46,709 bases of DNA, taken from NCBI GenBank assembly GCA_029233965.1, contig JARGOP010000020.1, positions 1-46,709 on the forward strand. Direction: 5' to 3'. The notes beneath the pieces are model-generated. The model was not told the DNA's origin, ran no database searches, and saw nothing but the letters and a program-made list of their open reading frames with translations. Shown piece after piece: positions 6,045-25,303 of the stretch. Within the stretch, counting starts at the first letter, position 1. Every line of letters starts with the position of its first letter. This stretch comes from Verrucomicrobiales bacterium (GTDB taxonomy: Bacteria; Verrucomicrobiota; Verrucomicrobiia; Verrucomicrobiales; DEV007). Position numbers and translations under genes: made by a program.

Positions 6045-6079
6045 CTCAGGGCATCGCAGGGGGGAGTGATGGGGGAGTG

Positions 6080-7537: not shown

Positions 7538-7545
7538 CAGGTGAC

Positions 7546-8397
7546 TCAGGCCTGCTCCTTCGGATTCAATCGATATCGATAGAGCAGGAGGAGAAGAAGC
7601 GGCAGGAGCCAGTGCGAGGTCCGCACCGCCGTTTCGAAGGCCCATGGATCGAGAGTCCACCCTGACAAGCTCACATCGAAGTGGGCAACGATGCGTGCGC
7701 TCGCAGTGGCGGCACCCCAGACTACGAGGTAGATCAGGGAAACGATCCGCGCCGGTTTGAAGAAAATGCCGATCGCGAAGACGATGTCGAGCCAGCCGAC
7801 GATGGAGAGAAAGAGGATCGCCGATTCCTGAGTCACCCCGAGAATGTTCATTGTCATGTTTTGATAGGAGAGGGGAACCGGGTGAATTCCTGCGGCATAA
7901 AATCCGTGTCCAATAAAGGTCATCGCTGCGGCGATGCTGACGAGGAGGCTCCATCGGCGTAGTGATACGTTCTTCCCTGTCGCAAAGAACAGGGCGATCG
8001 GGGTGATCATTTGCAGGGCGTGCTCAATCGCCATTCCAAAATCGAAATCGGAGGCGACCCATCTCGCAAGACTGTCGAGGAAGAGAAGGAAGGCCATGGG
8101 CCAGAGCAACCACCGGGTCCACGGGCAGCATTTTCCGGAGACGAACCACGGCAGGGTTGCCCCGAGGATCAGGATGAGGCCGAAGACCATCAAGCCCTGG
8201 TTGATCCATGGATCGGAAGCGGTCGCAAAATCCGACCAGGTCATCCCGGTGAGCTGATGGATCAATCCGGTCCACCAGTCTTCCTGCCAGACCAGTCCGC
8301 GGATCGGACTGTCCCATCGCCACGTCAGCCATCCCCGCGCCACAAGCGTGACACTGACACAGAGCTTGAGGAGAGTGAGCCAACGCTGGTAAGTCAT
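7546..8397 (-). CDS. Polytopic membrane protein of unknown function
   Basis: This protein of about 283 residues has seven or eight hydrophobic segments, including a first segment near LKLCVSVTLVARGWL and later ones near LMVFGLILILGATLPWF, WPMAFLLFL and AILFLSIVGWLDIVFAIGIFF, and ends in a leucine run followed by a basic tail. No catalytic motif was recognised. The later half faintly recalls DoxX-like membrane proteins, but I would not assign that. The ATG at 8397 was chosen because AGAGG lies about 7 bases upstream and because the additional upstream residues of the open frame look non-coding. It is downstream of msrA on the same strand with a gap of 92 bases, and convergent with selO (8-base gap). 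Confidence 0.75.
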   Translation of the reverse strand: MTYQRWLTLLKLCVSVTLVARGWLTWRWDSPIRGLVWQEDWWTGLIHQLTGMTWSDFATASDPWINQGLMVFGLILILGATLPWFVSGKCCPWTRWLLWPMAFLLFLDSLARWVASDFDFGMAIEHALQMITPIALFFATGKNVSLRRWSLLVSIAAAMTFIGHGFYAAGIHPVPLSYQNMTMNILGVTQESAILFLSIVGWLDIVFAIGIFFKPARIVSLIYLVVWGAATASARIVAHFDVSLSGWTLDPWAFETAVRTSHWLLPLLLLLLYRYRLNPKEQA

Positions 8398-8489
8398 AAG
8401 ATGCCTCTTTATGCCGTCACTCGCGCAGGTGGTCGACGAAAAAGGAACACGTTTCACCGTGATGCTTCTCCGTAGCTTTCGGGAACCTG

Positions 8490-9215
8490 TCAGTGATTTG
8501 CGACGACTTTCCTGAGGGTTGACTCCATCGATGCCGGAAGGCCATAGGCCGGAAGCTCTTCGCGGAAAGTTTCCCAGTTGCGCTCCATCCCCGAGCCGAG
8601 GAAGGCATTGAGGCGCGTTGCCACTGCCGAGTCGGCGAGCGACTTTTCATCGGGATAGGTCTCTTCCAGAAATGCCCTCAGGTCGTGGTAGCGCGTCAGG
8701 TAGTAACTCTGATGGTAGCGCTCCGCGTAGGTGAATTCGGTCACCGGCTCGAGATGAGTCTGAATGGACTCCACCGCGACGCCATGCCGTTCCGATTCAG
8801 CCTGAAACGAGGCACGGGCTATCGCCTCCTGCGCGTCGGAGCGGTAGAAGAGAACGTTTCGATACTGGCTCGAAGGATGATTCCGCAGGCTGTGATGACT
8901 GTCCCAGAAACAGGAGAGTACTTGTTGAAAAGTGATGAGATCAGGATCGAAATCGATCGAGATTACCTCGGTATGATCGCCCATGGACTGATAGGTCGGG
9001 GAAGCGGTCCTGCCACCGCAGTATCCGGCCCTGGTCCTCAATACTCCTGGAAGGCTTCCGAACTCGGAATCCGGTCCCCAGAATCATCCCACTCCGAAGG
9101 TGGCAGTTTCGTAGGCCCGCTTCGAAGTTGTTTTGTCGAAGGGAAGCCGGTCAGCGGAGAGGGTCCCGTCTTCAATCGCAAGAGGACCGGCTTGAGTTCT
9201 GGATGAATGGAACAT
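8490..9215 (-). CDS. msrA: Peptide methionine sulfoxide reductase MsrA, probable selenoprotein (Sec44, TGA at 9084-9086)
   Basis: This enzyme reduces methionine-S-sulfoxide in proteins. Reading from the ATG at 9215, the frame runs through one TGA at codon 44 (9086-9084) to the true stop at 8490. The TGA replaces the catalytic cysteine: the residues before it are YETATFGVG and those after are FWGPDSEFG, which together form the MsrA active-site block GCFWG with only the cysteine changed. The rest of the domain follows without a break: LPGVLRTRAGYCGG, TYQSMGDHTEV, SSQYRNVLF and FTYAERYHQSYYL. A SECIS-like hairpin (9045-9083) begins right after the TGA. Conventional calling would keep only a fragment starting at TTG 9041, lacking the active site. 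Total length is 241 residues. There is no signal peptide. The start lies 10 bases downstream of the lipoprotein hydrolase stop, suggesting cotranscription. Confidence 0.9.
9045..9083 (-). promoter_or_regulatory. Bacterial SECIS-like hairpin in msrA
   Basis: On the minus strand directly after the TGA, TTCTGG (9083-9078) pairs with CCAGGA (9050-9045). Above an asymmetric internal loop (GGACC against TT), GGATTCCG (9072-9065) pairs with CGGAAGCC (9060-9053) with a single A/G mismatch. The apical loop is AGTT (9064-9061), with G as second base, 21 bases after the TGA. Bacterial SECIS elements recognised by SelB have this geometry, with a G among the first loop bases about 16-37 bases past the TGA. 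Folding was judged by eye. Confidence 0.7.
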
Positions 9216-9225
9216 GGTGGTGCGT

Positions 9226-10629
9226 TTAGTCTTCGATGTTTCGGAAGTCCCATTCGCCAAGAGGTCCCGGGATGAGTTCCCGTTTTAATGGCTCAAGGCC
9301 TTTGATGATGAGGTTGAAAATGTCCGTAACGACGACCTTCTGACTGCCGTAGTAGCCGTGTCCGAGCATACTCGTGTCGATGCCGGAGGCATTGACCGTG
9401 TCCATGCCGCCGAGGACGTGGAGGCTCGCTCCGGAAAGACCGAGGCGGCTGTTTCCATGGATGCCCTGAGAGAGCTTCAGAGCGGCGTCGTCCGAGGAGG
9501 CATACATCGTCAACTTCTCCGTTGCGACGGACAGTTTGGGGAAGATCTGATCCTTGAAAATATCTGCATCGATATCGGGCGCTGCGAGAATCACATTGTG
9601 CAGGTCAAGGTCGAAGCCTTCATCCTTTGCATTGGCGAGGGCGTAGCTGAGGACCCGGGTTCCCATGCTGTGTGCGATCACATGAATTTTGTCGATCTCC
9701 GTGTTTTCCTGCAGATCCATGAGGAATTGCGTGAGATGGGGAATCGACCATTCGGCGTTCGCTTCATCGACGGTGTAGGCGGTGAGTGAGGCTTTCGAGG
9801 GCCAGCTGTAGGTCATAGCAACGCCACCGAAATCGAGATCGAAGGCAATCTGGCCGGTGCGACGCACGGCATCATCAAAAGCGACATTGAAACCGTGAAT
9901 AAAAAGGAGGGCTTCGTTTTTCGGCCGCTCTCCGGCAGTCGAACTGACTGTGCTGAAAAAAGTTTTGGAATCCATTTTCTCGAGGTCAAGAATGACGACA
10001 TGCTTCTTCGGAGACTCGGAGAACTCCAACTTGTACCACTTGGGACGTTCCACGACACCAATCTGGTGATGAAGCGGGATCGAAACAGTGGTTTTTCCAT
10101 ATTCCATGGGACCCTCGCGATTCCGCTCACCGCCGTATTGCCCGTTGCTTCCTTCGGCCTCTGTGGGTTTCCGGTTGGTTCCGTAGAACACGTCAACCGT
10201 GTGATATTCCCTGGATTCAGGCTCCACTTTTGCGGGGACCCGGGTAATCACGGTGCGAGTCTGGAGGCCGAAACCGCCGTCGTCGGGGGGAGTGGTCGTG
10301 ACAACGGGAGGTTCGGCCGGAACCGGAGGCATGGTCTCAGTCACCGGAGGCGCCGGCTTCGGCGGGACGGGAGGTGCCACTTCCACGACGGGAGGAGCCG
10401 AATCTGTTCCGGGAGAAGCCACCTCAACGGGCGCCGGGGCAGGAGGAGCGGGCTCGACTGCGACCGGAGGCGGTGTTTCCGCCCCGGGGTCATCGACGTT
10501 TTCGTCTGTTGTCGGGGGAGCGCCACAGCTGACAACGAAGAGGGCTGCTGTGGCCAGAATCGGGATTCCGAAAGCTTGACTGCCGACCTGCCTGATTCGA
10601 TTCCAAACGGAGATGCTTGTTGGTTTCAT
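9226..10629 (-). CDS. Lipoprotein alpha/beta hydrolase (DUF900 family) with proline-rich linker
   Basis: The N-terminus carries a lipoprotein signal with the lipobox-like end Val-Val-Ser-Cys35-Gly, so the protein is probably anchored to a membrane. Residues about 37-115 form a Pro/Ala/Val/Glu-rich, low-complexity linker that likely spans periplasmic space. The hydrolase domain follows from about 140: VDVFYGTNRKP opens it, as in DUF900 proteins; LLFIHGFNVAFDDA holds the oxyanion region; and the nucleophile elbow Ala-His-Ser321-Met-Gly is clear. An acidic residue in LAAPDIDADIF and a histidine in LGHGYYG near the C-terminus could complete the triad. The substrate is unknown. It is first in a minus-strand group with msrA (10-base gap). 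Confidence 0.85.
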   Translation of the reverse strand: MKPTSISVWNRIRQVGSQAFGIPILATAALFVVSCGAPPTTDENVDDPGAETPPPVAVEPAPPAPAPVEVASPGTDSAPPVVEVAPPVPPKPAPPVTETMPPVPAEPPVVTTTPPDDGGFGLQTRTVITRVPAKVEPESREYHTVDVFYGTNRKPTEAEGSNGQYGGERNREGPMEYGKTTVSIPLHHQIGVVERPKWYKLEFSESPKKHVVILDLEKMDSKTFFSTVSSTAGERPKNEALLFIHGFNVAFDDAVRRTGQIAFDLDFGGVAMTYSWPSKASLTAYTVDEANAEWSIPHLTQFLMDLQENTEIDKIHVIAHSMGTRVLSYALANAKDEGFDLDLHNVILAAPDIDADIFKDQIFPKLSVATEKLTMYASSDDAALKLSQGIHGNSRLGLSGASLHVLGGMDTVNASGIDTSMLGHGYYGSQKVVVTDIFNLIIKGLEPLKRELIPGPLGEWDFRNIED

Positions 10630-10817
10630 GAGTGCGTTGGCTTCAAGTAAAGCAACAGCTGTTGAAGCATTTTTGCAATCAACAAACGGGCCGTGAGAGC
10701 GACGAATAAGGGCGGAATTTCATGCGACTGTTCCGATCTGATTTCTACAAATTCGTGCCTGAATCTTCATGGTCCGCGGATTGCCTTTCCTTTCCGTTAC
10801 GCTCAGAATGGCATTCT

Positions 10818-13800
10818 ATGGCATCCCGAATTTCCTGTTTCGCTCTCAGCGTTCTGTTGTCCGTTTTTCCGGTCTTCGCTGAGGAATCGGAATCAATAGA
10901 GCGTCCCAATATCCTTCTCCTCCTGGTGGATGATTTGAAGCCCGCTCTGGGATGTTATGGTGATGAAACCGCGCAGACTCCCCATCTTGACGCACTGGCG
11001 GCGAGAGGGATGCGATTCGATGCCGCGTATTGCAATCAAGCCGTTTGCGCCCCTTCCCGTTTTACCTTGATGTTGGGAGCGCACTCGACGTCGACGGGCC
11101 TCTATGGCCTCGGAAGCGATCTTCGCGCTGTTCTGCCCGAAGCGGTCACTCTGCCTCAATACTTTGCGAAATACGGGTACCGGACGGAATCACTGGGCAA
11201 GATTTTTCATATCGGTCATGACAACGAAGGTGATCCCGAATCTTTTTCGGTTCCGCATTTCAAAGAGAAAGTCATCGAATATGTGGACCCGGCGAGTACC
11301 CCCGGCGGTCAGCTCACCCGCGAGGAGGCGATGTTCACGAACGCGCGGAAAACCAATCCTGAGATCGGGGACTACAACAAGCTCCCGCGGGGCGCGGCCT
11401 TCGAGTCGCCTGAGGTCGACGATGAGGCCTACGCCGACGGCCGCGTCGCGAGGGAAACCCTGGCGAGACTTGCCGCCGCAAAAGAGCGTCGCGAATCGGA
11501 AGGAACGCCATTCTTCATTGCCGCCGGCTTCGCCCGTCCCCATCTTCCGTTTTCGGCTCCGAAGAAATACTGGGACCTTTACGATCCTGACCTTCTCCCC
11601 ATGCCTGCGGAGGAGGAGTTGCCGGAAAATTCACCGACGGTGGCGCACAAGCGGGGAGGGGAGATCCGGAATTACTTCCCGGTTCCGGATAAAGGTGATC
11701 CTGCCCGGATTTCAGACGAGCTGAAGCGGGAACTGATTCATGGCTACTATGCGAGCACGAGTTACGTCGATGCTCAGATCGGCAAAGTCATCGATGGGCT
11801 CGATGAACTCGGTCTTGCCGAAAACACCATCATCGTGCTTTGGGGGGATCATGGATTTCATCTCGGTGATCTCGGGATCTGGACGAAGCACACAAACTAC
11901 GAGCAGGCGAATCGCATCCCGATTCTCTTCGTCGCGCCCGGCGTGGCGGAGCCGGGAAGTTCGACGGGGCAACTCACGGAGACGGTGGACATTTATCCGA
12001 CCCTTGCCGAACTGGCCGGTTTGCCGGCACCCCGGGGCCCGCAACCGATGGACGGAGTCAGTCTCGTCCCGGTCTTGAAAAACCCGGAAGTGCGCGTTCG
12101 GGATCATGCCTTTCATGCCTACCCGAAAGGGAAGATTGGCCGGGCGATCCGAACCGATCGCTACCGGCTCGTGGAATGGAAGAACCCCGGTGCGGATCCT
12201 TCGCAGGCTGAGTATGAATTGTATGATTACGCGGAGAACGATCTTGAGCTGGTGAATATTGCCGGCGGGAAGCCGGAGAAGCTTTCCGAACTCAAGTCGA
12301 TTCTTCAGCAATACCCTGAGGCGGTGGGTCGGGATTCCTCACCGCCGGCTGCGGCGAAGAAGACAGCGAATCAGTCAGGCGGGGTGGAGCTGGAGGAGTA
12401 CGCCCCTCTCATCGCGAATGTGCCGCTGAAGATTCACGCCGAGGTTCGGCCGAAAGGAGACCGGGCCGAAGGCGTGGTCCTCGCGCAGGGTGGTCGGGAA
12501 CACGGCTATGCTCTTCATTTTGTGCAAGGACGGCCGGCCTTTGATGTGAGAGTGAACGGAAAGGTCAGCCGACTCATCAGCGAAGAGCCGATGAAGGGGA
12601 TCATTCGACTGGATGCTGAACTCAACGAAGAGGTGATGACGTTCTCGATTAACGGAGGTGAGCCTCTTTCCAGGCCCTCGCCCGGACTGATCCCGAAGCA
12701 GCCACAGGACGGGCTTTCGGTCGGCCTCGACCGGCGTTCTGCTGCGGGCGATTACGAAGCGCCGAATCCGCTGACGGTCATGATTTCCAACACCCGGGTC
12801 GAGGCGGGGGGGAATCCTCCTGCAGTCGCGGGAGCGATGACACCCGGGGAGATCCGGGCCGGATTTGCTGCTCATGACCGGGCCCTCTTCGTGAAAGAAG
12901 GATGGATTCGCGATCCGTATCTCATTACCGGACCGGACGGCTGGATGTATCTCACGGGGACAACACCGCTGAATGGCGATCCCAGAGAAGAGACAGATCC
13001 CTACAACACCGGCCTCGGTGATGAATCCATCGTCGGTTGGAAAGCGAATGTCTGGCGGAGCAAAGACTTCGCGACCTGGGAATCACTTGAGGCCCCGTTC
13101 TCGTTGAAAGACGGGATCTGGTATCAATCCATTCCGGAGGCCTTCAGCAAAACGCCGGAGAAACACTGGTTCCTCTGGGCGCCGGAACTTCACTGGATCG
13201 AATCGATGAAGAAGTGGGCCCTGGTCCACACCAGCCCGACTCCGGTGGCGGGCGCGAATCTTTCGCTGAGTGCCGGTCCCGAAGTGGCCGGTCCCTGGAC
13301 AAACCCCATGGGCGTTGCCATTCAAAAACGCCATGACCCCTCTCTCTTTCGAGATGACGACGGCACCTGGTGGATGGTGTGGGGAGCCACGAAAATTGCC
13401 CCCCTCGAACCTGACTTCTCCGGTTTTTCCGGAAAGGAGATCGCGATTTCGCCCGGAGGTGACACGAAGCAGATGGGGCATGAAGGATGCCTCATCATGA
13501 AGATTGAAGGGAAATACGTCCTCTTCGGAACCGGCTGGTCGACGGGGGAAATGCGCCGCGGAAGCTACAATCTCTACTACGCGGTTGCCGATCACATTAC
13601 CGGCCCCTACAGCGAGCGGAAATTCGCGGGTCGTTTCCTCGGGCATGGAACCCCGTTTCAGGATCCGGAAGGGCGCTGGTGGTGCACCGCATTTTACAAT
13701 GCCAATGTGCCTCCTCTCAGCCGGGAAGGAATTGAGAATCGCGATCTCAGTGATACCGCGCAAACGATCAATGCGAGGGGCACCACGCTGGTTCCACTGG

Positions 13801-13898
13801 ACGTGAAATTGCTCGACGATGGAGAGCTCTGGATCCGGGCGAAAGATCCGGCCTACGCCACGATCGGGCTGGATGAGGCTCAGGAGTTTGATCGTTGA
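10818..13898 (+). CDS. Three-module secreted enzyme: sulfatase, LamG-like domain, GH43-like propeller
   Basis: A signal peptide (residues 1-21) is followed by an iduronate-2-sulfatase-like domain (about 28-490), with LLVDDLKPALG for metal binding, Cys77-Ala-Pro-Ser-Arg81 as formylglycine site, GKIFH and WGDHGFHLGDLG. A beta-sandwich resembling LamG/concanavalin-like domains follows (about 525-675; AEVRPKGDRAEGVVLAQGG). The C-terminal part (about 690-1020) looks like a GH43-type five-bladed propeller: WIRDPYLITGPDGWMYLTGT, WAPELHWI, RHDPSLFRDDDGTWWMVWG and HGTPFQDPEGRWW contain the usual acidic residues. This would let one protein remove both a sulfate and a sugar residue. There is no internal stop or frameshift, so the fusion is real in this sequence. 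The ATG at 10818 was preferred over 10722 because it starts the signal peptide. The 3' end overlaps the convergent PAP2 gene by 19 bases. Confidence 0.88.
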   Translation: MASRISCFALSVLLSVFPVFAEESESIERPNILLLLVDDLKPALGCYGDETAQTPHLDALAARGMRFDAAYCNQAVCAPSRFTLMLGAHSTSTGLYGLGSDLRAVLPEAVTLPQYFAKYGYRTESLGKIFHIGHDNEGDPESFSVPHFKEKVIEYVDPASTPGGQLTREEAMFTNARKTNPEIGDYNKLPRGAAFESPEVDDEAYADGRVARETLARLAAAKERRESEGTPFFIAAGFARPHLPFSAPKKYWDLYDPDLLPMPAEEELPENSPTVAHKRGGEIRNYFPVPDKGDPARISDELKRELIHGYYASTSYVDAQIGKVIDGLDELGLAENTIIVLWGDHGFHLGDLGIWTKHTNYEQANRIPILFVAPGVAEPGSSTGQLTETVDIYPTLAELAGLPAPRGPQPMDGVSLVPVLKNPEVRVRDHAFHAYPKGKIGRAIRTDRYRLVEWKNPGADPSQAEYELYDYAENDLELVNIAGGKPEKLSELKSILQQYPEAVGRDSSPPAAAKKTANQSGGVELEEYAPLIANVPLKIHAEVRPKGDRAEGVVLAQGGREHGYALHFVQGRPAFDVRVNGKVSRLISEEPMKGIIRLDAELNEEVMTFSINGGEPLSRPSPGLIPKQPQDGLSVGLDRRSAAGDYEAPNPLTVMISNTRVEAGGNPPAVAGAMTPGEIRAGFAAHDRALFVKEGWIRDPYLITGPDGWMYLTGTTPLNGDPREETDPYNTGLGDESIVGWKANVWRSKDFATWESLEAPFSLKDGIWYQSIPEAFSKTPEKHWFLWAPELHWIESMKKWALVHTSPTPVAGANLSLSAGPEVAGPWTNPMGVAIQKRHDPSLFRDDDGTWWMVWGATKIAPLEPDFSGFSGKEIAISPGGDTKQMGHEGCLIMKIEGKYVLFGTGWSTGEMRRGSYNLYYAVADHITGPYSERKFAGRFLGHGTPFQDPEGRWWCTAFYNANVPPLSREGIENRDLSDTAQTINARGTTLVPLDVKLLDDGELWIRAKDPAYATIGLDEAQEFDR

Positions 13899-14758
13899 AG
13901 GAGCCTCGATTTCACAAGAATCCAGGGCACGACGAACGAAGAGGCAATCCCGATGAGCAGCCCTCCAAGGGCGGGGGCCGAAACCCGCGGAACCCGGAGG
14001 GAAAAAATCACGGTGCGGAAGGCATAAGCCATCAAGGCGAGGAGGAAGATGCCCGCAATGGCGACGCCGAGACGATTCCATCCTGTGGGAGAAACGAAGT
14101 GTAAATACTTTCGTTCCAGACTCCGGCCAGAGAGCCAGGCGACATAGAAACCGGTGACGAGATACATTTTCCCGGTGGCATCACCGTGTGGCCAGAAAAG
14201 AATGAGGAGGATCGGGAAAAAGAAAAGCGCGGCCGAAGGAACGAGACCGCGGCAACACCCGGGAGCACAACGCTTCCGAAAGGCAAAAGCGGTAAGAAGG
14301 AGGAACCCGATCACGGCTCCTCCAAGAACGTCTTCCAGATCGTGGACACCGAGATAGAGGCGACTGGATGAGATCCCGGTGATCATGAGGACGGCAATCG
14401 CAAGGATCCATCGTTTCTTTGTCTCGACGGCAAGTCCGCCCCAAAAGACGATGGCCATAAGCGTGTGGCCGCCGGGCAGTCCGTAGCTTTCGGGCCTGAG
14501 ACCGTCGATCGCCAGCCCGGCAGGTGGCCTGGGATCCTGAAAAAGGTCTTTGAAAAACAGGGTCAAAACACCTGAGATCAGTGTGAGGATCGCGATCCTG
14601 CTGCCGGACTCCTTGTTCCAGCACCAATAGAGAAGTGGCAGGGCCCCGAAGAAAAACTCGGTGAACCCGAGGAAGGTGAAGACTGTAAAGACCGGAGTGA
14701 GCGCCTCGTGTCGAAGCGGCAGCACCCATTCCATGTCGTGGAGGATCGAAGCAATCAT
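13880..14758 (-). CDS. PAP2-family membrane phosphatase
   Basis: This integral membrane phosphatase probably dephosphorylates a lipid phosphate such as undecaprenyl pyrophosphate or phosphatidic acid. The three family motifs are in order: KDLFQDPRPP (motif I, Lys...Arg-Pro), LPGGHTL (motif II, containing the catalytic histidine, with Gly where Ser is common) and SRLYLGVHDLEDVLGG (motif III, Arg...His...Asp). About eight to ten hydrophobic helices are present, including several after motif III, so at 292 residues it is longer than minimal PAP2 proteins. It converges on the sulfatase/GH43 gene with a 19-base overlap. The extended C-terminal helices have no recognised function. Confidence 0.88.
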   Translation of the reverse strand: MIASILHDMEWVLPLRHEALTPVFTVFTFLGFTEFFFGALPLLYWCWNKESGSRIAILTLISGVLTLFFKDLFQDPRPPAGLAIDGLRPESYGLPGGHTLMAIVFWGGLAVETKKRWILAIAVLMITGISSSRLYLGVHDLEDVLGGAVIGFLLLTAFAFRKRCAPGCCRGLVPSAALFFFPILLILFWPHGDATGKMYLVTGFYVAWLSGRSLERKYLHFVSPTGWNRLGVAIAGIFLLALMAYAFRTVIFSLRVPRVSAPALGGLLIGIASSFVVPWILVKSRLLQRSNS

Positions 14759-14824
14759 GTTTCCGCTTTGCCGTGACCAAAATGAGGAAGCGTTGGATTC
14801 CTTTGCCGATGGCCGCTAGGTTCC

Positions 14825-15034
14825 ATGATTATGAAGCTCAAGCAGAATCAGCTCTGGAAGCAAGGCGACCGGTTCTACCGCATCGTCCACCTGGAACGTC
14901 TTTCGGTCGACTACAAAACCGTCGATCCGATGGATCCGGAGGCGGGGAGTCATCATTCCGTGACGAAGAAAGAGTTCTGCCGCCTCATCAAAGGGGCCGA
15001 AGAAGTTCTTGATCCCTCGCTCTTCGGAATGTGA
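14825..15034 (+). CDS. Small conserved-looking hypothetical protein
   Basis: This is a 69-residue soluble protein beginning MIMKLKQNQLWKQGDRFYRIV. It is rich in charged residues, contains one cysteine and has no signal or membrane segment. The opening Leu-Trp-Lys-Gln-Gly-Asp-Arg-Phe-Tyr-Arg pattern suggests a small beta-barrel or SH3-like fold, but this is impression only. It sits alone between the divergent PAP2 gene and the convergent ThuA-like gene. A second in-frame ATG at 14831 could be the start. No family was recognised. Confidence 0.6.
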   Translation: MIMKLKQNQLWKQGDRFYRIVHLERLSVDYKTVDPMDPEAGSHHSVTKKEFCRLIKGAEEVLDPSLFGM

Positions 15035-15040
15035 GACCTT

Positions 15041-15916
15041 CTACTTTCCAAAGCCGTTCGCAGGGGTGCCATCGTCGTTCAAGTTCCCGGTGACCCAGAG
15101 GAGGCCACGGGTGACGAGATCGAGGTAGCGATCATCCGCAACGGTCTCATTGAAGTGACCCAGGCTCGTGCTGAAGATTCTGGTTTTCTTCGGGCCGTAA
15201 AGATTGGTCCAAGCGACGACTGCGATGGCTTCTTTTCCGACTGCATTCGGATCCGCCGGTTGTCCTTTTTTCGGCTTCGGAAACTGAATCTGCTTTCCGG
15301 AAACGAGCGGGTGTGCTGCGTCAAAAGTTCTCAGGTTGTTGTAGAGCTCCTCGTCAATCGTCGTCCAGTCTTCCATCCCAACGGTGATGGGATGTTTCTT
15401 GTCGGTGTAGGTCAGGTCAATCGGGGCTTTGGGCCCGTGGCTGGTTGATTGCATGCCGATCATCTCATACCATCCGGCGTTGTCCGCGCCGTCGGTGACC
15501 GGCTCCTTGAAGATGCCCCGGCGATAGCTGTGCATCGCACAGTGGATGTTCACTGCGGGAACGCCGTCCCGGTGTGCCGCGAGAATGCGGTCAACGTAGG
15601 CAGGGTCGGTGACGTTGGCGGAGCATTCATCGTGAAGAACGACGTCAAAGCCTTTGGCCCAATCGGCGTTTTCGTAAATGGGGAAAGTGGCCCCGGTTGT
15701 CGTGTCGGCGGTGTATTCGACAACGACGTCGGCATGGATACGCGACTCGATCCCGACTTCGAGGATCGTTTTCTGCATCGCATAATCATGACAGCATCCG
15801 CCGATCACGAGAAGGATTCGCAGCGGCTTCGATTCGGATTCTTCGTCCGCTTGCACAAGCCATAAGCAACTGAGGCCGACGCTGAGCGCGATACACAGGG
15901 GAAGTATTTTTTTCAT
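15041..15916 (-). CDS. Secreted ThuA-like domain protein
   Basis: After a signal peptide (residues 1-23) the protein follows the ThuA-like (trehalose-utilisation, class I amidotransferase-like fold) pattern: LRILLVIGGCCHDY, GFDVVLHDECSANV, VPAVNIHCAMHSYR, then KHPITVGMEDWTTIDEELYN and TSLGHFNETV towards the C-terminus. In PVC bacteria such proteins accompany secreted sugar-modifying enzymes and often occur with DUF1080 and Gfo/Idh/MocA proteins. Their reaction is not established, although roles in keto-sugar metabolism are suspected. At 291 residues it is complete. It is preceded on the same strand by the YdcH-like gene, but a terminator-like hairpin lies between them. Confidence 0.85.
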   Translation of the reverse strand: MKKILPLCIALSVGLSCLWLVQADEESESKPLRILLVIGGCCHDYAMQKTILEVGIESRIHADVVVEYTADTTTGATFPIYENADWAKGFDVVLHDECSANVTDPAYVDRILAAHRDGVPAVNIHCAMHSYRRGIFKEPVTDGADNAGWYEMIGMQSTSHGPKAPIDLTYTDKKHPITVGMEDWTTIDEELYNNLRTFDAAHPLVSGKQIQFPKPKKGQPADPNAVGKEAIAVVAWTNLYGPKKTRIFSTSLGHFNETVADDRYLDLVTRGLLWVTGNLNDDGTPANGFGK

Positions 15917-15931
15917 GAGTAAAAACGCAAA

Positions 15932-15971
15932 AACTTCCCCGGATCCGACTATTCGAACCCTGCGGGAAGTT
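15932..15971 (-). terminator. Probable rho-independent terminator after the YdcH-like gene
   Basis: An 8-base perfect inverted repeat (AACTTCCC at 15932-15939 and GGGAAGTT at 15964-15971) with a 24-base loop lies downstream of the minus-strand YdcH-like gene. It is followed on that strand by the T-rich sequence TTTGCGTTTTT. The large loop makes it less typical. Confidence 0.45.
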
Positions 15972-15990
15972 CCGCGAAAAAAAGAATGAA

Positions 15991-16236
15991 CTATTGAGCC
16001 GCTTCCTGCAACATTGCAGCGAGCTGATCTTTGAGGTCGAGCCGCTTTTTTTTTGCCCCGGTCAAGACAAGGTCTTCCGGAGTTTCAATACCTTCCTCCA
16101 TGCGGAAGACTTCTTTGTCGGCTGCTTCATACTCTTCCATCAATTTGCGGAAGTGAGCGTTATCCATCTTGAGCTGATGGATTGCGTCGTGTTGCTCAGG
16201 GAATTCGGACAACAGGGGGTGGTGGTTTATTGGCAT
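15991..16236 (-). CDS. YdcH-like (DUF465) small coiled-coil protein
   Basis: This short helical protein of about 81 residues begins MPINHHPLLSEFPEQHDAIHQLKMDNAHFRK. The start, the heptad-like helix and the closing segment with KKKRLDLKDQLAAMLQ match the YdcH/DUF465 family, whose members are small cytoplasmic proteins of unsettled function. The ATG at 16236 was chosen because the family begins at the hydrophobic HPLLSEFP stretch; the open frame continues upstream to 16329 without family similarity. It is followed by a terminator-like hairpin. Confidence 0.78.
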   Translation of the reverse strand: MPINHHPLLSEFPEQHDAIHQLKMDNAHFRKLMEEYEAADKEVFRMEEGIETPEDLVLTGAKKKRLDLKDQLAAMLQEAAQ

Positions 16237-16315
16237 CCCCGAGCAAATCCCGTTTCTTGAGTTGAGTCTATCAGAAAGACTCGCAATGCTGCCGAATCGC
16301 GCAGCCATTGCCTGT

Positions 16316-16340
16316 TTTCTGAGCACCAATTGCTCAGAAA
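16316..16340. terminator. Strong intergenic stem-loop, possible terminator
   Basis: TTTCTGAGCA (16316-16325) and TGCTCAGAAA (16331-16340) form a perfect 10-base stem with a 5-base loop, in the gap downstream of the minus-strand parvulin gene and upstream of the YdcH-like gene. The stem can be extended by CTG/CAG pairs with one bulge. No T-tract follows on either strand, so it could instead be an mRNA-stabilising or attenuating structure. Confidence 0.4.
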
Positions 16341-16400
16341 CAGATCGGGTCGCGGAAGCGGCACCCGGAAGCGCCGCTCCCTGTGAAAAACCGGAGTGAA

Positions 16401-17474
16401 TTAGATTTCAGCGGGAACCTCAGGTCCGGCCGGTTCTGCAGGCGCGTCGGCTTCCGGAGAGGCCGGAGCAGCGGTCGGAACAATCTTCGCTCCTTCGCGA
16501 AGTTCCGTGAGATATGCTTCGATCTTTTCTCCCTTCTCCTGCTCGAAAAGATTGGTGGCAAGGTCCTCTTTGACCTCCTCGTAGGTCAGCGTCTTCGCCT
16601 CTTTGCGGTCGGTAACCTTGATGATGTGATACCCGAAATCAGTCTTCACGAGGTCTCCGATCTCACCGACTTTCTGTTCGAACGCGGCTTTCTCAAACTC
16701 AGGCACCATCTGGCCTGCGGCAAACTGCCCGAGGTCCCCGCCCTGAGCCTTGCTCGGACAGTCGGAGTGAGCGCCGGCGAGTTCAGCGAAATTCTCGCCT
16801 TTCGCCTCAGTGAGCTGTGCTTTGATGTCTTCCGCTGACTTCTTCTTTGCTGCGATCGCAGCTTCGTCGGTGAGGTCCCGGGTGGAGATGAGAATGTGGG
16901 CAGCGGAAACGCTGGCGTCCTGTTTGAACTCGTCAGGATGCTCATCATAGTAGGCCTTCACGGCAGTCTCTTCAGGCTCCTTAATGTCTGCTGTCACCTT
17001 GTCAAACAGCTGACGAATTTTGATATCGTCTCCGATTTGACCTTTGATTCTCGAAAGATCGACGCCGGCCTGAGCGGCATAGTCTTCGATCTTGATGCCT
17101 TCGGGGAGGGACTTTGCGATTTCAGCCATCTTTGCATCGACCTCAGCAGGAGGGGCCTTGAAACCCTCTTTGTCGGCGGCATTGATGAAAAGGGCTTTGG
17201 AGATGAGATCTCCCATCACCATTTGCTGCATTTGCTGCTGCACCATCGCAAGTTGCTCAGGTGGCATCTGCTGAAGCTGACGGCCGAATCGGGCCATCAT
17301 GATTTCGCGGACATCTTCCTCCGTGATCGGGGTGCCATCGACGGTGAGGAGGACGGGGCTGGAAGTGGCGGCAGCGGGAGCCGCAGCTTCATCCTGTGCC
17401 GTCGCCGGGTGGGAAATCGCAAGAAGGCTGAGCAACGCAAGCGCAGCCGTGAACATTGTAGTAAGGACTTTCAT
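16401..17474 (-). CDS. SurA/PrsA-like periplasmic peptidyl-prolyl isomerase (parvulin)
   Basis: This secreted chaperone/isomerase helps fold exported proteins. A signal peptide (1-26, ending ATA) is followed by an N-terminal helical SurA-N-like region (about 40-180: [19 protein letters not shown], rich in Met and Gln). The parvulin domain occupies about 190-290 and shows [29 protein letters not shown] and [11 protein letters not shown], the conserved histidines and Gly-Asp-Leu-Gly of PpiC rotamases. A Pro/Ala/Glu-rich tail ends the 357-residue protein. It is monocistronic by appearance, with a divergent sulfatase 266 bases away; no clear promoter or operator was found in that gap. A periplasmic location fits the many secreted enzymes encoded nearby. 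Confidence 0.88.
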
Positions 17475-17740
17475 GATTTAGCAGGTGTCAGGAGCGGATA
17501 GGCTCCCGGGGTTTCTGTCCGGTTCCCACGCAGAGAAATTGAACTTGGCGGAACGGATCGGTAGAGTTTCGGTCCAAATAGAGCAGGCACAACCCCATTC
17601 TTCGTCCGTAAAAGCGGTGATTTTATGCGTTTTCACCCCGGCGCGGGTCTGAAGCCAAACTCCGTGCAGGGCAGGAATAGCTCGATTTGGCGGAATCAGG
17701 GCTCGTTTTCCGGGCCGGTTTCGTGTCATCTTCCCGCCCT

Positions 17741-19135
17741 ATGAAGTCTGTTTTCTGTGTTTTTTTCGTTCTTCTGGCGGTCTCTCCGGGCATCGCGGTA
17801 GAGAAGCCGAACACCATCTATATCCTCGCGGACGATCTCGGAGTGGGGGACGTCGGTGTTTACGGACAGACCTTGTTGAAGACGCCGAGGATTGATCAAC
17901 TCGCGGCCGAAGGGATGCGTTTCACGCAGCATTATTCCGGCAGCTCAAGTTGTGCCCCGACCCGCAGCTGTCTTATGACCGGTCAGCACACAGGTCACAC
18001 CCGGGTGAGGAAAAATGGTGACGGGCCTCTGTTGGCCGAAGACGTGACGATCGGGGAAGTGCTTCAGGAGGCCGGTTACAAGACGGCCGCAATCGGCAAA
18101 TGGGGGGTCGGGGAAGAGGGCACGACCGGAGTTCCGTGGGAGCAGGGATTCGATTATTTCTTCGGCTATCTCAATCAGAGGAATGCACATCATCACTACC
18201 CGCCGTTCCTCTGGAGAAATGACCGGAAAGTTCTCTATCCCGGCAATCCGGAAATGCGCACGCACTACAGTCATGACGAGTTCACGCGGGAGGCCCTGAC
18301 ATTCATCCAGGAAAATCAGGGGGAGCCGTTTTTTCTCTACGTGCCCTATACGCTCGTCCACGTGGACCTCGATGTGCCCGCTGATTCGATGGATCCGTGG
18401 GTCGGGAAAATTGAGGAAACGAAACCGCACGGTACGCCGGGAGGTCAGCATTACATTTACCAGGAGAAACCCCATGCCGCCTTCGCGGGAATGGTTTCCC
18501 GATTGGACCGGGACGTCGGGAGGATTGTCGACCTTGTCGATGAACTCGGCATCGCGGAAAACACACTCATCATTTTCACGAGTGACAACGGGCCCACTTC
18601 AGCCGGCGGGGCGGATCCGGCTTTCTTCGATGGGAACGGTCCTTTTCGAGGGATCAAGTTTGAGTTCTACGAAGGCGGGATTCGTTGCCCCATGATTGCG
18701 AGATGGCCCGGCAAGGTGAAAGCCGGATCGGAAACCGATCATGTTTCCGCGCATTGGGATGTTCTCCCGACCGTCGCGGAGTTGGCGGGAACGACGGCAC
18801 CGGAGGGCATTGATGGAGTGAGTTTCCTGCCGACCCTCCTCGGGAACGCGGATGAACAGGAAGTGCACCCTCATCTCTACTGGGAGTCGGCCGACAGGAA
18901 GGGTTGGCAGGCGTTGAGGATGGGGAAGTGGAAAGCCCACCGGATCGGGACACGGTCTCCCGGCAGGGAAGTATTCGAACTCTACGACCTCTCGAATGAC
19001 ATCGCCGAGGAGAAGAACGTCGCCGACGAATTTCCGGAAGTGCTTCGCGAGGTGCGGAAGATCATGCAAGAGGGACGAACCGGTCCTGCAACCGGGGATA
19101 CCCTCTTTCTTCCTGCTCCGGAGAAAAAGCAGTGA
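17741..19135 (+). CDS. Secreted sulfatase (arylsulfatase A-like, Cys-type)
   Basis: This is a predicted formylglycine sulfatase. The signal peptide covers residues 1-19. Metal-site aspartates lie in LADDLGVGD (Asp31, Asp32), the activation motif is Cys71-Ala-Pro-Thr-Arg75, and GKWGVG and TSDNGPTSAGG give the conserved lysine and the second metal-binding pair. The pattern YNQRNAHHHYP-like (actually LNQRNAHHHYPPFLW) and HVDLDVP resembles arylsulfatase A-type enzymes common in PVC bacteria. The ATG at 17741 starts the signal peptide; the frame is open upstream to 17687 without apparent coding value. It abuts the convergent Gfo/Idh/MocA gene with no intervening base. The substrate cannot be inferred. 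Confidence 0.9.
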   Translation: MKSVFCVFFVLLAVSPGIAVEKPNTIYILADDLGVGDVGVYGQTLLKTPRIDQLAAEGMRFTQHYSGSSSCAPTRSCLMTGQHTGHTRVRKNGDGPLLAEDVTIGEVLQEAGYKTAAIGKWGVGEEGTTGVPWEQGFDYFFGYLNQRNAHHHYPPFLWRNDRKVLYPGNPEMRTHYSHDEFTREALTFIQENQGEPFFLYVPYTLVHVDLDVPADSMDPWVGKIEETKPHGTPGGQHYIYQEKPHAAFAGMVSRLDRDVGRIVDLVDELGIAENTLIIFTSDNGPTSAGGADPAFFDGNGPFRGIKFEFYEGGIRCPMIARWPGKVKAGSETDHVSAHWDVLPTVAELAGTTAPEGIDGVSFLPTLLGNADEQEVHPHLYWESADRKGWQALRMGKWKAHRIGTRSPGREVFELYDLSNDIAEEKNVADEFPEVLREVRKIMQEGRTGPATGDTLFLPAPEKKQ

Positions 19136-20332
19136 TCATCCAAACCGGAGGAACGGATTCTGTTTCTCCTCGAGGGGAAATGCGATGCGCCGTCCATCTT
19201 CGACATGCGAAGCAAAGGCGGCCATCGTCATGGCGACGACAGTGCGCCCGTCCTCCTCGTTGCAAAGCGTGGGGCGGTCTTCCTCGATTGCGGCAATCAA
19301 ATCGTGAATCGCAGCGTGGTGCCCCCCGATTTGACGGCGAATCTCAGGGACGGGCTCAGGCACCCCGACACCTCCGGAAGTGACGGGGTGCCAGGATCCG
19401 GGATCCGGGGTCGGTTGAAAGGGGCTGCCTGCGAGGAGGTGCGCGAGCGGTTCGCGGTCGGCTCTCAGGTCTATGATTCCCTCCGTCCCGACGAATTGAA
19501 TCCCAAAGCCGGCTTCGCGGGTGCCGGCGTTCTCGATGGAGTCGAAAAACAGAGGCACTCCGTTTGCCATTTCGTAGCGGGCGTGGATTTCGTTTCCGGC
19601 AATGAGCCCGACTTCCTCCGCTCCTTCGACGACATCGTTGGCCGTAGCGGGTTTCCCGTCGGCGAAAATCGTGGCGGAGCACGAGAGGGGATCACCGGCG
19701 AAGTAATGGACGAGGTTCAGAAGATGGGAGCCGAGAACCCAGAGATCCTGACATCCTCCTCTCGCGTCCTCTTTTCCACGGGCACGGATTTCGAGGAGGG
19801 TTCCAATTCCGCCTTCCTCGATGAGATCACGGACTACCGGCAACACGGGGTGATATCGATTGCGGTGTGCGATCGCCAGTTTCGTTCCATTTTCCCGGCA
19901 GGCCTCAATCATCCCGTCGGCTTCGGCGAGATCACGGCAGAAGGGTTTCTCCACGTAGATACCCTTCGCCCCGGCCTTTGCCGCCGCGATGACCATGGCG
20001 GCGTGCGGTCCGACGTATCTCGGCGCCACCGCGACGAGGTCGGGCGAGGTTTTCTCGAGCAATTCGTTGAAGTCGGCAAAAGCCGCTTCCGGGGAAAGGT
20101 TGAGTTTTTTGGCGGCATCGGCTCGGCCCTTCTCAACAGGATCGGACACTCCCACAATTTCAACGCCGGGAAATCCCAACCAAACCGTATCGAGTCCGTG
20201 ACCGAAGCTGCCCCGCTCAGAGTGACCCATCACGGCAACCCGCGAGGGTTTCCCGTCGGCGCTCAGAAGCGGTGAGGTGGCTCCGGCCGCAGCGGCGGCC
20301 AGGAGTGACTGAAGGGTTTCTCTTCGATTCAT
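19136..20332 (-). CDS. Tat-signal Gfo/Idh/MocA-family oxidoreductase
   Basis: This is a predicted NAD(P)-dependent sugar or cyclitol dehydrogenase of the Gfo/Idh/MocA family. The N-terminus MNRRETLQSLLAAAAAG is a twin-arginine-type signal, as usual for the exported PVC members. The Rossmann part shows SRVAVMGHSERG, VEIVGVSDP, and the family signature YVEKPFCRDLAEAD with the conserved Glu-Lys-Pro; KLAIAHRNRYHP follows. The C-terminal beta domain makes up the rest. The start ATG at 20332 overlaps the stop of the upstream DUF1080 gene (ATGA). Its pairing with a DUF1080 protein fits a route in which glycosides are oxidised at C3 and the keto-glycoside is then cleaved, which is an inference. Confidence 0.88.
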   Translation of the reverse strand: MNRRETLQSLLAAAAAGATSPLLSADGKPSRVAVMGHSERGSFGHGLDTVWLGFPGVEIVGVSDPVEKGRADAAKKLNLSPEAAFADFNELLEKTSPDLVAVAPRYVGPHAAMVIAAAKAGAKGIYVEKPFCRDLAEADGMIEACRENGTKLAIAHRNRYHPVLPVVRDLIEEGGIGTLLEIRARGKEDARGGCQDLWVLGSHLLNLVHYFAGDPLSCSATIFADGKPATANDVVEGAEEVGLIAGNEIHARYEMANGVPLFFDSIENAGTREAGFGIQFVGTEGIIDLRADREPLAHLLAGSPFQPTPDPGSWHPVTSGGVGVPEPVPEIRRQIGGHHAAIHDLIAAIEEDRPTLCNEEDGRTVVAMTMAAFASHVEDGRRIAFPLEEKQNPFLRFG

Positions 20333-21015
20333 GGCAGCAGTTTGATGCGGAGGTTTCGATAGGCGACCCGGCATCCTTTACCGTGATCCTGGAGGGCGAT
20401 CCATCCTTTTTTCCGGCCCATGCCGGGATCCTGATCGATCAGCGTGGCGAAGACGATGCCATTGATCTTCTGGACCAGTTTGTCGCCATCCACGATGATC
20501 TCCATCGTGTTCCACTCCGCTTCTTTGTAATGCGACTGGATTTCCGCAGTGTCGTTTTCCTGCGTCACGGTGCGGGCGCCGGCATCCGAGATCTCCGCGG
20601 TCTGCCCGGCGGTGGTCATGAGGTGCCGTGCCTCTTTGGTAGGGTGTTCTCTGCTGAGGAGAGAGTGATGCCAGAGTCCCATGACATCCTGCTGCGCCAC
20701 TTCCACCTGATAGCCGAAGATCTGCCAGTCGCCGAGGTCATCGCTGCGGACCTGGACGCCCGAGTTCCCGCTCTCCCATTTGAATTCCAGTTTGAGGATG
20801 AAGTTGGCGGGTTCTTCTTTTCGCCAGATGAGCCAGTTCTTGTTCTTTGCTTCACCGGTGCAATGGATCTCGCCGCCGATGATTTCCCAGGCGCCGGGTT
20901 GACTGTCCCAGTCGGTGAAGTCTTTCCCGTTGAAGATCGGTTCGAATCCGGATTCTTCAGCGGAAAGGAGAGAAGCGAAAAAGAGAAGTGTCAGGGTTGA
21001 GAGGATAAGTTTCAT
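20329..21015 (-). CDS. DUF1080 secreted protein (3-keto-disaccharide hydrolase family)
   Basis: The protein has a signal peptide (1-19) and then the typical DUF1080 opening FEPIFNGKDFTDWDSQPGAWEIIGGEI, the WRKEEPANFILKLEFKW strand, GNSGVQVRS and the closing KGWIALQDHGKGCRVAYRNLRIK. This LamG/concanavalin-like fold is widespread in PVC bacteria. Some members have been described as hydrolases of 3-keto-glycosides, so the annotated family name is used here, but activity on a specific substrate is inference. It overlaps its neighbours on both sides by ATGA junctions, upstream with the spermidine-synthase-like gene at 21012 and downstream with the Gfo/Idh/MocA gene at 20329. At 228 residues it is complete. 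Confidence 0.9.
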   Translation of the reverse strand: MKLILSTLTLLFFASLLSAEESGFEPIFNGKDFTDWDSQPGAWEIIGGEIHCTGEAKNKNWLIWRKEEPANFILKLEFKWESGNSGVQVRSDDLGDWQIFGYQVEVAQQDVMGLWHHSLLSREHPTKEARHLMTTAGQTAEISDAGARTVTQENDTAEIQSHYKEAEWNTMEIIVDGDKLVQKINGIVFATLIDQDPGMGRKKGWIALQDHGKGCRVAYRNLRIKLLP

Positions 21016-21884
21016 GGGTTTCTGAGTGAGGTGGCGATTTCCTGGAAAGAGAAGTCGAGCGCAAGCGTTTCGTCGAGGCGGGCGGCGCGTTGGAGGAGTT
21101 CCTCCGGAGTTGCGGATGTCTCCGCTTTGCAGGCGATAATGACGCGGTTTCCGGTGCCGGGAACGCGAAAGGAAAAGGTGGAAGCGAAGGCTTCATCAAT
21201 CGCGTCGAGATTGTCCTTCGCCGAGGGCTCCGCCGGAATGATGTTGAACGCGACGACTCCGTCGGGGGTGAGATGGGTTTGCAGTTGGGTCAGGAACTCG
21301 ACCGTTTTGAGGCGAAGGGTTTTCTCCCCGAGGGAAGAGTTTGCCGGTGGTTGCAGAAAGGCATCCATGTAGATGGCGTCGAAGCTTCCGTGCTCCCCCT
21401 CCAGAAAAACGAAGGCATCTTCTGTGTGAATGCGGAACTGCGGGCCGGGGCGGGTGTTGAAATAGTCTGCGGCGAGCTCGACGACGACCGGATCAATCTC
21501 CACGGCTTCAACCATCATCGCAGGAAAGGTGAAATTGAGAAATTGCACCATGCTGCCGCCACCGAGGCCGACGATGAGAACGCGGTTCTGAGGATAGTGG
21601 AAAAGAAGGGAGGCAAAGAGACTCTTCGTGTAGCCAAGTTGATGCTCCGCGGGGTCTTCGATGTTGATCGAAGACTGACACTGTTCGGCTCTGTTTTTGT
21701 CGACAAAGAGAAGACTCCGGACAGGACCTTTTTCCCGGATTCGTATCTTTGAAAACTCCGATTGGGTTTCGTAAATGACTTTCCCGAAGCGCTTCTCAGA
21801 GGGTGGCCGCGAAAGCGGCATGAGCACGAGCGCGAGGAGGGCAAGAGCGATTGCCGTAGCGAGAGCGGGACGTAAAGGTTTCAC
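21012..21884 (-). CDS. Spermidine-synthase-like SAM-fold protein with N-terminal membrane anchor
   Basis: A hydrophobic N-terminal segment (about residues 8-24) anchors or exports the protein. The following domain has the polyamine-synthase/methyltransferase Rossmann fold: RVLIVGLGGGSMVQFL as nucleotide-binding loop, VEAVEIDPVVVELAADYF with the acidic ribose-binding end, and YDAIYMDAF-like text at HGSFDAIYMDAF with the catalytic-site aspartate position. Such proteins are often misnamed spermidine synthase; without more evidence the polyamine function is not secure. Its coupling (ATGA at 21012) to DUF1080 and Gfo/Idh/MocA genes is unusual. The stop of the upstream esterase gene lies 15 bases away, so four genes may share a transcript. 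Confidence 0.8.
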   Translation of the reverse strand: MKPLRPALATAIALALLALVLMPLSRPPSEKRFGKVIYETQSEFSKIRIREKGPVRSLLFVDKNRAEQCQSSINIEDPAEHQLGYTKSLFASLLFHYPQNRVLIVGLGGGSMVQFLNFTFPAMMVEAVEIDPVVVELAADYFNTRPGPQFRIHTEDAFVFLEGEHGSFDAIYMDAFLQPPANSSLGEKTLRLKTVEFLTQLQTHLTPDGVVAFNIIPAEPSAKDNLDAIDEAFASTFSFRVPGTGNRVIIACKAETSATPEELLQRAARLDETLALDFSFQEIATSLRNP

Positions 21885-21899
21885 GGGCCGGGTTGGAGT

Positions 21900-22997
21900 T
21901 TATGGGAAGAGGCGCGGGGCGAAGTCGGTGAGGTAATCCCGCCAAACGCTCCACTGATGGCCCCCTTCGGTGAGGTGCCACTCGTGGAGGATACCGCTTT
22001 CAGTCAGACTTCCGATCAGGTTTTCATTTTCTTCGAGGAGGAAGTCCTTTTTCCCGCACGCGATCCAGAGGAGATCGAGCTTTGCATTGGTCTCTTCCGG
22101 TGAAGCGAGCGCCTTTTCCATCACGCCGGAATCCGGGATCGCTCCGCTGAAGGAGCCGATTGTCGCGAAGGATTCCAGTTCCTGAAAACCTATCGAAAGA
22201 GCGTGGAGGCCCCCCATGGAAAGTCCCGCAATGGCCCGATTCGTTCGGCCCTCTTTCACCCGATAGGTGCTTTCGATCATGGGAAGGACATGTTCCATGA
22301 GATCTTTGCGCAATTCCTCCGTATTTTCCGGCATCCGGCCGTCGCCGTAGGATTCGGGGATGGGATGGCCGTCTAACATGACAACGATCATAGGCTTTGC
22401 CTTCTCTTCAGCGATGAGGTTGTCGAGAATCCAGTGGGCCTTTCCGTAAGTCACCCAGGTCGCATAACTGTCGCTGTGACCGTGCTGGAGCACCAGCAAA
22501 GGATAGTTTTCGTCGCCGGCTTCATATCCGGGAGGCGTGTAGACTTTCAGCTCCCGAAATCGATCGATCGCGGAGGAGTGGTAGGCGTGCCCGTGAACGG
22601 TTCCATGCGGCACCTCTTTAAAATCGTAGGCATGGTCGCCGGGCAGATGCAGAATGCTGGTGCGCGGAGATCGCATCGGCTTGAGGTTCGGATTCCCCGG
22701 ATCGACAGTCTTCACGCCATCGATGGAAAAGCTGTAGCCGTAGATTCCAGCGGGAACGGCTTCGAGGGTGCCGGACCAAATTCCATCGTCCCCCCGGGTG
22801 AGCTCCAGTGGTTGATCGCTCATCTCGCCGGAGACGGAGACCTTGTCAGCATGAGGTGCCTGAATCCGGAACGTCACGTTTCGCTGTTCAGTGATGAGGG
22901 GGGAAACGACCGGGGCGGGGCGTTTCTTTTTCTTTTCAGCGGAAGCAAGCGGTGCCACCACCGCGAACAGAAAAATGAGGAGCGTAGTTCGAACCAT
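21900..22997 (-). CDS. Secreted esterase with N-terminal E-set domain (enterochelin esterase/CE1-like)
   Basis: A signal peptide (1-20) and a basic KKKKR stretch lead into an immunoglobulin-like E-set/CBM48-type domain (about 36-115: NVTFRIQAPHADKVSVSGEM, GIWSGTLEAVPAGIYGYSFSIDG). The alpha/beta-hydrolase domain follows: RELKVYTPPGYEAG, PLLVLQHGHSDSYATW, the nucleophile elbow Gly-Leu-Ser260-Met-Gly-Gly, and a final histidine in TEGGHQWSVWRDYL. This architecture is typical of carbohydrate esterase family 1 enzymes (acetyl-xylan or feruloyl esterases) and of enterochelin-esterase-like proteins. Given the surrounding sulfatases, removal of acyl groups from polysaccharide is the more likely role. 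It is the first gene of the minus-strand group running to 19136. Confidence 0.87.
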   Translation of the reverse strand: MVRTTLLIFLFAVVAPLASAEKKKKRPAPVVSPLITEQRNVTFRIQAPHADKVSVSGEMSDQPLELTRGDDGIWSGTLEAVPAGIYGYSFSIDGVKTVDPGNPNLKPMRSPRTSILHLPGDHAYDFKEVPHGTVHGHAYHSSAIDRFRELKVYTPPGYEAGDENYPLLVLQHGHSDSYATWVTYGKAHWILDNLIAEEKAKPMIVVMLDGHPIPESYGDGRMPENTEELRKDLMEHVLPMIESTYRVKEGRTNRAIAGLSMGGLHALSIGFQELESFATIGSFSGAIPDSGVMEKALASPEETNAKLDLLWIACGKKDFLLEENENLIGSLTESGILHEWHLTEGGHQWSVWRDYLTDFAPRLFP

Positions 22998-23106
22998 TCT
23001 CTTTAGATAAGGGGGGCAGGTTCCTGATGGAAAGGACGAATTCGCGGGAATTTCCTCAATTGCGGAATCGACAGGGAGAGCGACGGGAGGCTAACCTATT
23101 TCTCTC

Positions 23107-23640
23107 ATGAGAGCATCATTCATCCCCCTGACGACGCTTTTCGCCGGGTTGCTTTGTTTGTCGAATTCGGCCGCCGCGGCACCGGAGGTTGGAGACAGAG
23201 CCCCCGGGTTTTCCCTGAAAGGGAGCGACGGAAAGACCTATTCCACGGCCGATTACAAAGGCAAACAAGCCATGGTCATTGCCTGGTATCCCAAGGCCTT
23301 CACCGGGGGATGAACGGCTCAATGTGAGTCACTCCGTGAGAGTGGCAAAGAGATTGACGCGTTCGACGCAGCCTACTTCACCGCGAGTTGTGATGATGAG
23401 GAGACCAACGCCAGATTTGCAGAGTCGCTGAATCTTGATTACCCGATCCTGAGTGATCCGGATCGTGAAGTGGCGATGGAATACGGGCTCGTCAACAACG
23501 AGAGAGGAATGCCGAAGCGCTGGACCTTCTACATCGGGAAGGACGGCAAAATCCTATTCATCGATACGGCCGTGAAGGCCCGGAGTCACGGAGCCGACAT
23601 TGCCGCCAAGCTCGAGGAGCTGGGGGTCGACAAAAAATAG
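23107..23640 (+). CDS. Periplasmic peroxiredoxin (AhpC/TSA, Bcp-like), probable selenoprotein (Sec69, TGA at 23311-23313)
   Basis: This is a thioredoxin-fold peroxidase reducing hydroperoxides. The signal peptide covers residues 1-24. The core reads APGFSLKGSDGKTYSTADYKGK, then AWYPKAFTGG, then TGA at codon 69, then TAQCESLRESG. In cysteine homologues the residue at that TGA is the peroxidatic cysteine, followed by Thr and a second Cys four residues on, which is present here (Cys73). The frame stays open after the TGA for another 108 codons with all family features (YPILSDPDREVAMEYG, PKRWTFYIGKDGKILFID) to the TAG at 23638-23640. A SECIS-like stem-loop follows the TGA. Conventional calling gives a 68-residue truncated peptide ending at 23313. 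A GGGAGG lies about 16 bases before the ATG. Total length is 177 residues. Confidence 0.92.
23328..23346 (+). promoter_or_regulatory. Bacterial SECIS-like hairpin in the peroxiredoxin gene
   Basis: GTCACTC (23328-23334) pairs with GAGTGGC (23340-23346) to give a 7-base stem (one T/G wobble) with the loop CGTGA. The loop G at its second position is 23 bases after the TGA, and G is followed by T, as in the Escherichia coli fdhF element recognised by SelB. Placement and loop agree with the msrA hairpin in this window. The pairing was assessed by eye, and a weaker overlapping alternative (GGCTC with GAGTC) exists. Confidence 0.7.
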
Positions 23641-25219: not shown

Positions 25220-25303
25220 CGGGACAAGGGTCATCCCGATGACCGGAGTTCGTAAAGCTTTCGCCCGGCAGATTCGCGTGAGGAGAGGCGAATCCAACAG
25301 GGT

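Follow-up and report, generated by a model that had tools for sequence, protein, structure and literature searches.

In bacteria, selenocysteine (Sec) is decoded when SelB binds a hairpin and delivers Sec-tRNA-Sec to UGA. Methionine sulfoxide reductase A (MsrA) and peroxiredoxin (Prx) are both already listed as bacterial selenoprotein families (PMC13188914, PMC1088965, PMC2398784), and the motif PxxxTxxU has been given for Sec peroxiredoxins (PMC13188914). The Sec-MsrA of Clostridium (Alkaliphilus) oremlandii, whose structures have been solved (PDB 4LWJ, 4LWK, 4LWL, 4LWM, 4U66 and 4W8C), is of the one-Cys type, contains no Cys at all, possesses an essential C-terminal helical domain and is recycled by glutaredoxin, with Sec conferring a 20-fold higher activity (PMC4333827). 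In the open-access literature we found no paper treating Sec decoding in Verrucomicrobiota in detail (subscription papers were outside the scope of this search), the nearest being a study of planctomycetes (PMC4807772).

Here we analyse a 46,709-nucleotide stretch of DNA from a verrucomicrobial genome (the window), in which an MsrA gene and a Prx gene, both for enzymes that act against oxidative damage, each contain an in-frame TGA. It is very well supported that the two are new members of these known selenoprotein families, and almost certain, from the comparisons below, that both encode true selenoproteins in which UGA specifies Sec at the catalytic position.

Two genes with UGA at a catalytic position

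The gene for MsrA (peptide-methionine (S)-S-oxide reductase) occupies positions 8490–9215 on the minus strand and, translated from the ATG at 9215 with TGA read as U, gives a protein of 241 residues beginning MFHSS. The frame has a single interruption, a TGA at 9086–9084, which falls at residue 44 in the active site (ETATFGVGUFWGPDSEFGSLPG), at the catalytic position of the GCFW motif. The translation scored 122.7 bits against PF01625 (Pfam) and 108.5 bits against TIGR00401, above the cut-off of the latter. Its best solved relative is the C. oremlandii Sec-MsrA (E 6e-39, residues 36–230 aligned), the alignment taking in the C-terminal helical domain, and the two proteins share Sec at the same position (GUFWGPD), the catalytic domain and the extra helical domain. 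They differ in that the window MsrA has a Cys in the motif GYCGG, where the C. oremlandii enzyme has GYAGG, and another Cys in VLSCFW; GYCGG is present in about half of the distinct verrucomicrobial Sec-MsrA sequences (25 of 49). The window MsrA is thus best classed as a relative with the same domains as the C. oremlandii enzyme, not as a strict one-Cys type. An internal selenenylsulfide between Sec and the GYCGG Cys is possible. A broader proposal, that the verrucomicrobial GYCGG Sec-MsrAs have developed from the one-Cys C. oremlandii type into two-residue Sec/Cys enzymes which form an internal selenenylsulfide and are recycled by thioredoxin rather than glutaredoxin, with the linked Prx as an exported selenoprotein, seems to us rather unlikely. 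A separate Cys MsrA is encoded elsewhere in the genome (C3:15086–15553). Antisense to the Sec-MsrA gene, on the plus strand, runs a 227-codon open frame (8523–9203) with matches in most related loci, which probably just mirrors the codons of MsrA as a shadow frame.

The second gene, on the plus strand at 23107–23640, encodes a peroxiredoxin of 177 residues when TGA is translated as U, and its one interruption is the TGA at 23311–23313 (YPKAFTGGUTAQCESLRES). This codon corresponds to residue 69, the peroxidatic Cys position (PKAFTGGU). The protein scored 107.4 bits against PF00578 (Pfam) and, like the described bacterial Sec peroxiredoxins (Eubacterium acidaminophilum PrxU and a marine metagenome Prx; PMC1088965, PMC2398784, PMC13188914), it is an AhpC/TSA domain protein with the PxxxTxxU active-site motif and a peroxidatic Sec. 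Unlike these, it lies far below the cut-off of the NCBIfam PrxU equivalog NF040737 (34.4 vs. 270 bits), has a second Cys four residues past U69 (Cys73, UTAQC), and begins with a probable signal peptide (residues 1–25, 23107–23181, plus strand). The latter comprises a hydrophobic stretch and an AxA-like end, both of which recur in most orthologues, and the window Prx is on this basis probably exported.

A preliminary description of the window had reported one TGA at a redox Cys codon in each of these two genes, with frames ending at 8490 and 23640. Both statements hold, and in each case the in-frame UGA stands where homologues have the redox Cys. SelO, which had been described as having an ordinary Cys codon, is encoded by an intact gene (6041–7537) with no in-frame TGA.

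Selenocysteine machinery and TGA usage in the genome

The window genome (4.83 Mb in 151 contigs, 96% complete) carries selA, selB, selD and a tRNA-Sec gene cut after 53 bases, the set whose absence, according to the preliminary description, would refute Sec decoding. A single contig outside the window, C131, holds selA (6371–7726, 506 bits, above cut-off), selD just upstream of it (TIGR00476, 383 bits) and selB (12053–14011, above cut-off, with SelB winged-helix domains). The active site of selD reads CAGU by way of an in-frame TGA that is common to five relatives, and covariation in its hairpin is visible by eye in five sequences. As in other Sec-containing SelD proteins, the Sec lies in the N-terminal active-site motif and is conserved in relatives, and selD is the third predicted Sec gene of the genome, making at least three. 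A search of the genome with RF01852 returned 11 candidates, all of them ordinary tRNAs, and the apparent lack of tRNA-Sec arose because a contig ends inside the gene: searching with the anticodon-arm sequence of congeners, which possess a complete 95-base tRNA-Sec(TCA), recovered the 5' part at C22:21201–21253, with anticodon TCA and letter-for-letter identity to a congener's gene over its 53 bases.

Several further observations concern these selenium loci. Genes for tRNA-Sec lie at contig ends in two genomes, occur twice, 700 bases apart, in genome G011, and are represented by one 3' partial copy in G459 (loci L159 end, L167, L169 and L170 taken together). The tRNA-Sec gene may thus be a site at which repeats or mobile elements integrate. 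Adjoining selD in the opposite direction is a gene for SenB, the selenosugar synthase (332.8 bits, above the cut-off of 300), and beside these a SenA-like selenoneine synthase (409.7 bits, slightly below the cut-off of 420; both within L006:2815–5138, on C131 of the window genome, G000), thus the organism may also make selenoneine. Between selA and selB is a phosphonate-type ABC transporter set (L006:7805–11441), consisting of a PF12974 binding protein (7805–8791) followed by ABC ATPase and permease-like ORFs, the substrate of which could be a selenium compound.

The presence of in-frame TGA in several genes is also what would be seen if TGA were recoded throughout the organism, for example as Cys or Trp, with selenium uninvolved. 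TGA is, however, the commonest ordinary stop, terminating 26 of 42 well-scored long ORFs and also the MsrA gene itself, which argues that there is no general recoding in the genome, and the complete Sec machinery stands against it as well; the preliminary description had named such recoding as fatal to its reading, and we give it a vanishingly small probability. A codon-bias scan of the fetched contigs for more TGA-interrupted genes yielded chiefly shadow frames and the normal ends of genes. Its one serious candidate, C131:29–562 (L006:29–562), was rejected as a selenoprotein: its TGA falls at a Trp column, where the three closest relatives have TGG, and none of the matching relative genomes has a TGA there. 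This TGA is probably a nonsense change (a pseudogene) or a sequence error, and serves as a negative control, illustrating how a TGA that arose by chance presents itself in this genome.

Conservation of UGA and exchange with Cys among relatives

Across 58 genomes of the family, all close MsrA orthologues carry TGA, placed at the catalytic UFW by reading of the loci. We extended this to 84,980 species genomes with a scan blind to TGA, in which the profile begins after U and ignores the codon. The scan returned 80 loci, and TGA occupied the position in all 78 with a readable motif, with no Cys there in any of them. These loci span at least seven phyla, hosts of the subfamily including strains of Roseibacillus persicicus (among them KCTC 12988, locus L198) and R. 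ishigakijimensis, Rubritalea, and members of Nitrospirota, Chloroflexota, Planctomycetota, Acidobacteriota, Calditrichota and the former Deltaproteobacteria. Both in the uncultured family and in the named strains of Roseibacillus that carry a Sec-type MsrA, automatic gene callers would split such genes in two.

The preliminary description had proposed a phylogeny of both families in Verrucomicrobiota. In the MsrA tree, 29 Sec sequences form one group (support 100/100) apart from 16 Cys MsrAs of the family. In the Prx tree, the 18 close orthologues form a clade, again at 100/100, with TGA in 13 of them and TGC or TGT in the other five. The Cys forms are nested among the Sec forms in at least four separate places, one of them (L120) being the sister of the window sequence. 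UGA is therefore conserved throughout the MsrA orthologues and exchanged with Cys in those of Prx. The constancy of MsrA, against several Sec/Cys swaps of Prx within one family, makes the pair a natural comparison of which enzymes can give up selenium, and why. This bacterial family also harbours another, distinct group of Sec peroxiredoxins, which have TGGU or TSGU followed by TxQA (L137, L140, L142).

The distribution of the two genes follows that of the machinery. TGA was present in one or both orthologues in 15 of the 58 family genomes, and all 15 have selA (14 above cut-off, one as a fragment), while TGA orthologues are absent from all 21 genomes that lack selA (Fisher 4e-4 for selA against Sec orthologue). 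The exact tRNA-Sec arm was found in 12 of the 15 Sec-positive genomes and in 17 of the remaining 43. The analysis extends Sec decoding to a large verrucomicrobial family that is uncultured. What it shows directly is the anatomy of the two genes, the Sec machinery, the conservation of UGA and of the hairpins, and the joint occurrence with selA; that Sec is actually incorporated, what the enzymes catalyse and where in the cell they act, we infer from these.

Insertion of Cys at UGA is known for animal thioredoxin reductase. With this precedent, and given the existence of Cys-bearing Prx orthologues, the Sec machinery might decode UGA as Cys at low selenium, making the two proteins facultative Cys enzymes. 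No bacterial evidence for such decoding was found in this analysis, however, and it would add to Sec insertion rather than provide an alternative to it; we consider it very improbable.

Hairpins downstream of UGA and gene neighbourhood

Each in-frame UGA is followed by a candidate SECIS hairpin. In MsrA it lies at 9071–9053 on the minus strand, bases 13–31 after UGA, with the loop AGUU (letters GATTCCG-AGTT-CGGAAGCC), and in Prx at 23328–23346 on the plus strand, bases 15–33 after UGA, with the loop CGUGA (GTCACTC-CGTGA-GAGTGGC). The loop G is base 21 after TGA in the former and base 23 in the latter, exactly as first described. The folding energies of the single sequences were no better than those of shuffled sequences (z 0.35 for MsrA, −0.76 for Prx), so the support for a stem-loop with an apical-loop G right after UGA comes wholly from comparison, where it is strong. 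A search with Rfam gave no match in the window, and chance matches only on L006 (G000:C131). As the conserved hairpins overlap conserved protein motifs, their conservation is partly protein-driven, and the RNA-level evidence for them is covariation at synonymous positions.

In MsrA, this takes the form of a coupling between a residue and a Gly codon that follows it. Sequences with E after FWGPDS have GGA, GGC or GGT as the following Gly codon (32 of 32), and those with Q or R in that place have GGG (45 of 45), with a Fisher value of 2e-22 that overstates independence because the sequences are related. The synonymous choice of Gly codon keeps a predicted stem in either register. Pair counts were run on both types, and in the E-type set no pair had changes on both sides, hence the support for the hairpin there is the codon coupling. 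In Prx, each of the 13 Sec orthologues forms all seven pairs, with two pairs changed on both sides, and sliding the pairing partner destroyed the signal. The hairpin is lost in four of the five Cys orthologues, and the recent Cys form L120 retains a remnant.

These comparisons also bear on whether the two genes are simply decaying, a TGT or TGC having mutated to TGA and left truncated products. One base change suffices for this, and the apparently real nonsense TGA at the Trp column of C131:29–562 shows a case in the same genome. However, dozens of diverged orthologues of the two window genes retain this TGA and have a frame that stays open beyond it, a conservation which refutes decay; in addition, the hairpins covary, and the Sec orthologues are restricted to genomes with selA. 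Cross-species TGA conservation, hairpin covariation and the correlation with selA together make chance nonsense mutation untenable, and we regard decay as extremely improbable. Both arguments of the preliminary description are supported, that chance nonsense mutation is unlikely and that the organism decodes TGA as Sec in both enzymes. Under Sec decoding, SelB with Sec-tRNA-Sec would recognise the stem-loop directly after each in-frame UGA, and Sec would be inserted at the catalytic position of MsrA and Prx. MsrA would then reduce methionine-S-sulfoxide, probably in the cytosol, and Prx would reduce peroxides, probably after export.

The two genes are 14 kb apart in the window, and at this distance the idea of a functional linkage between them was dropped. 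In genome G004 they are likewise on one contig, ca. 28 kb apart and in the same relative orientation. The congener G012 has a metallophosphoesterase-like gene in place of MsrA in an otherwise collinear block (L266:5386–6663), yet has kept selA and tRNA-Sec. The two window genes lie in a block that is partly collinear in relatives, so that their closeness need not have a functional meaning. The window also contains several sulfatase-like genes (10722–13898, 17687–19135 and 23684–25297), pointing to the breakdown of sulfated polysaccharides.
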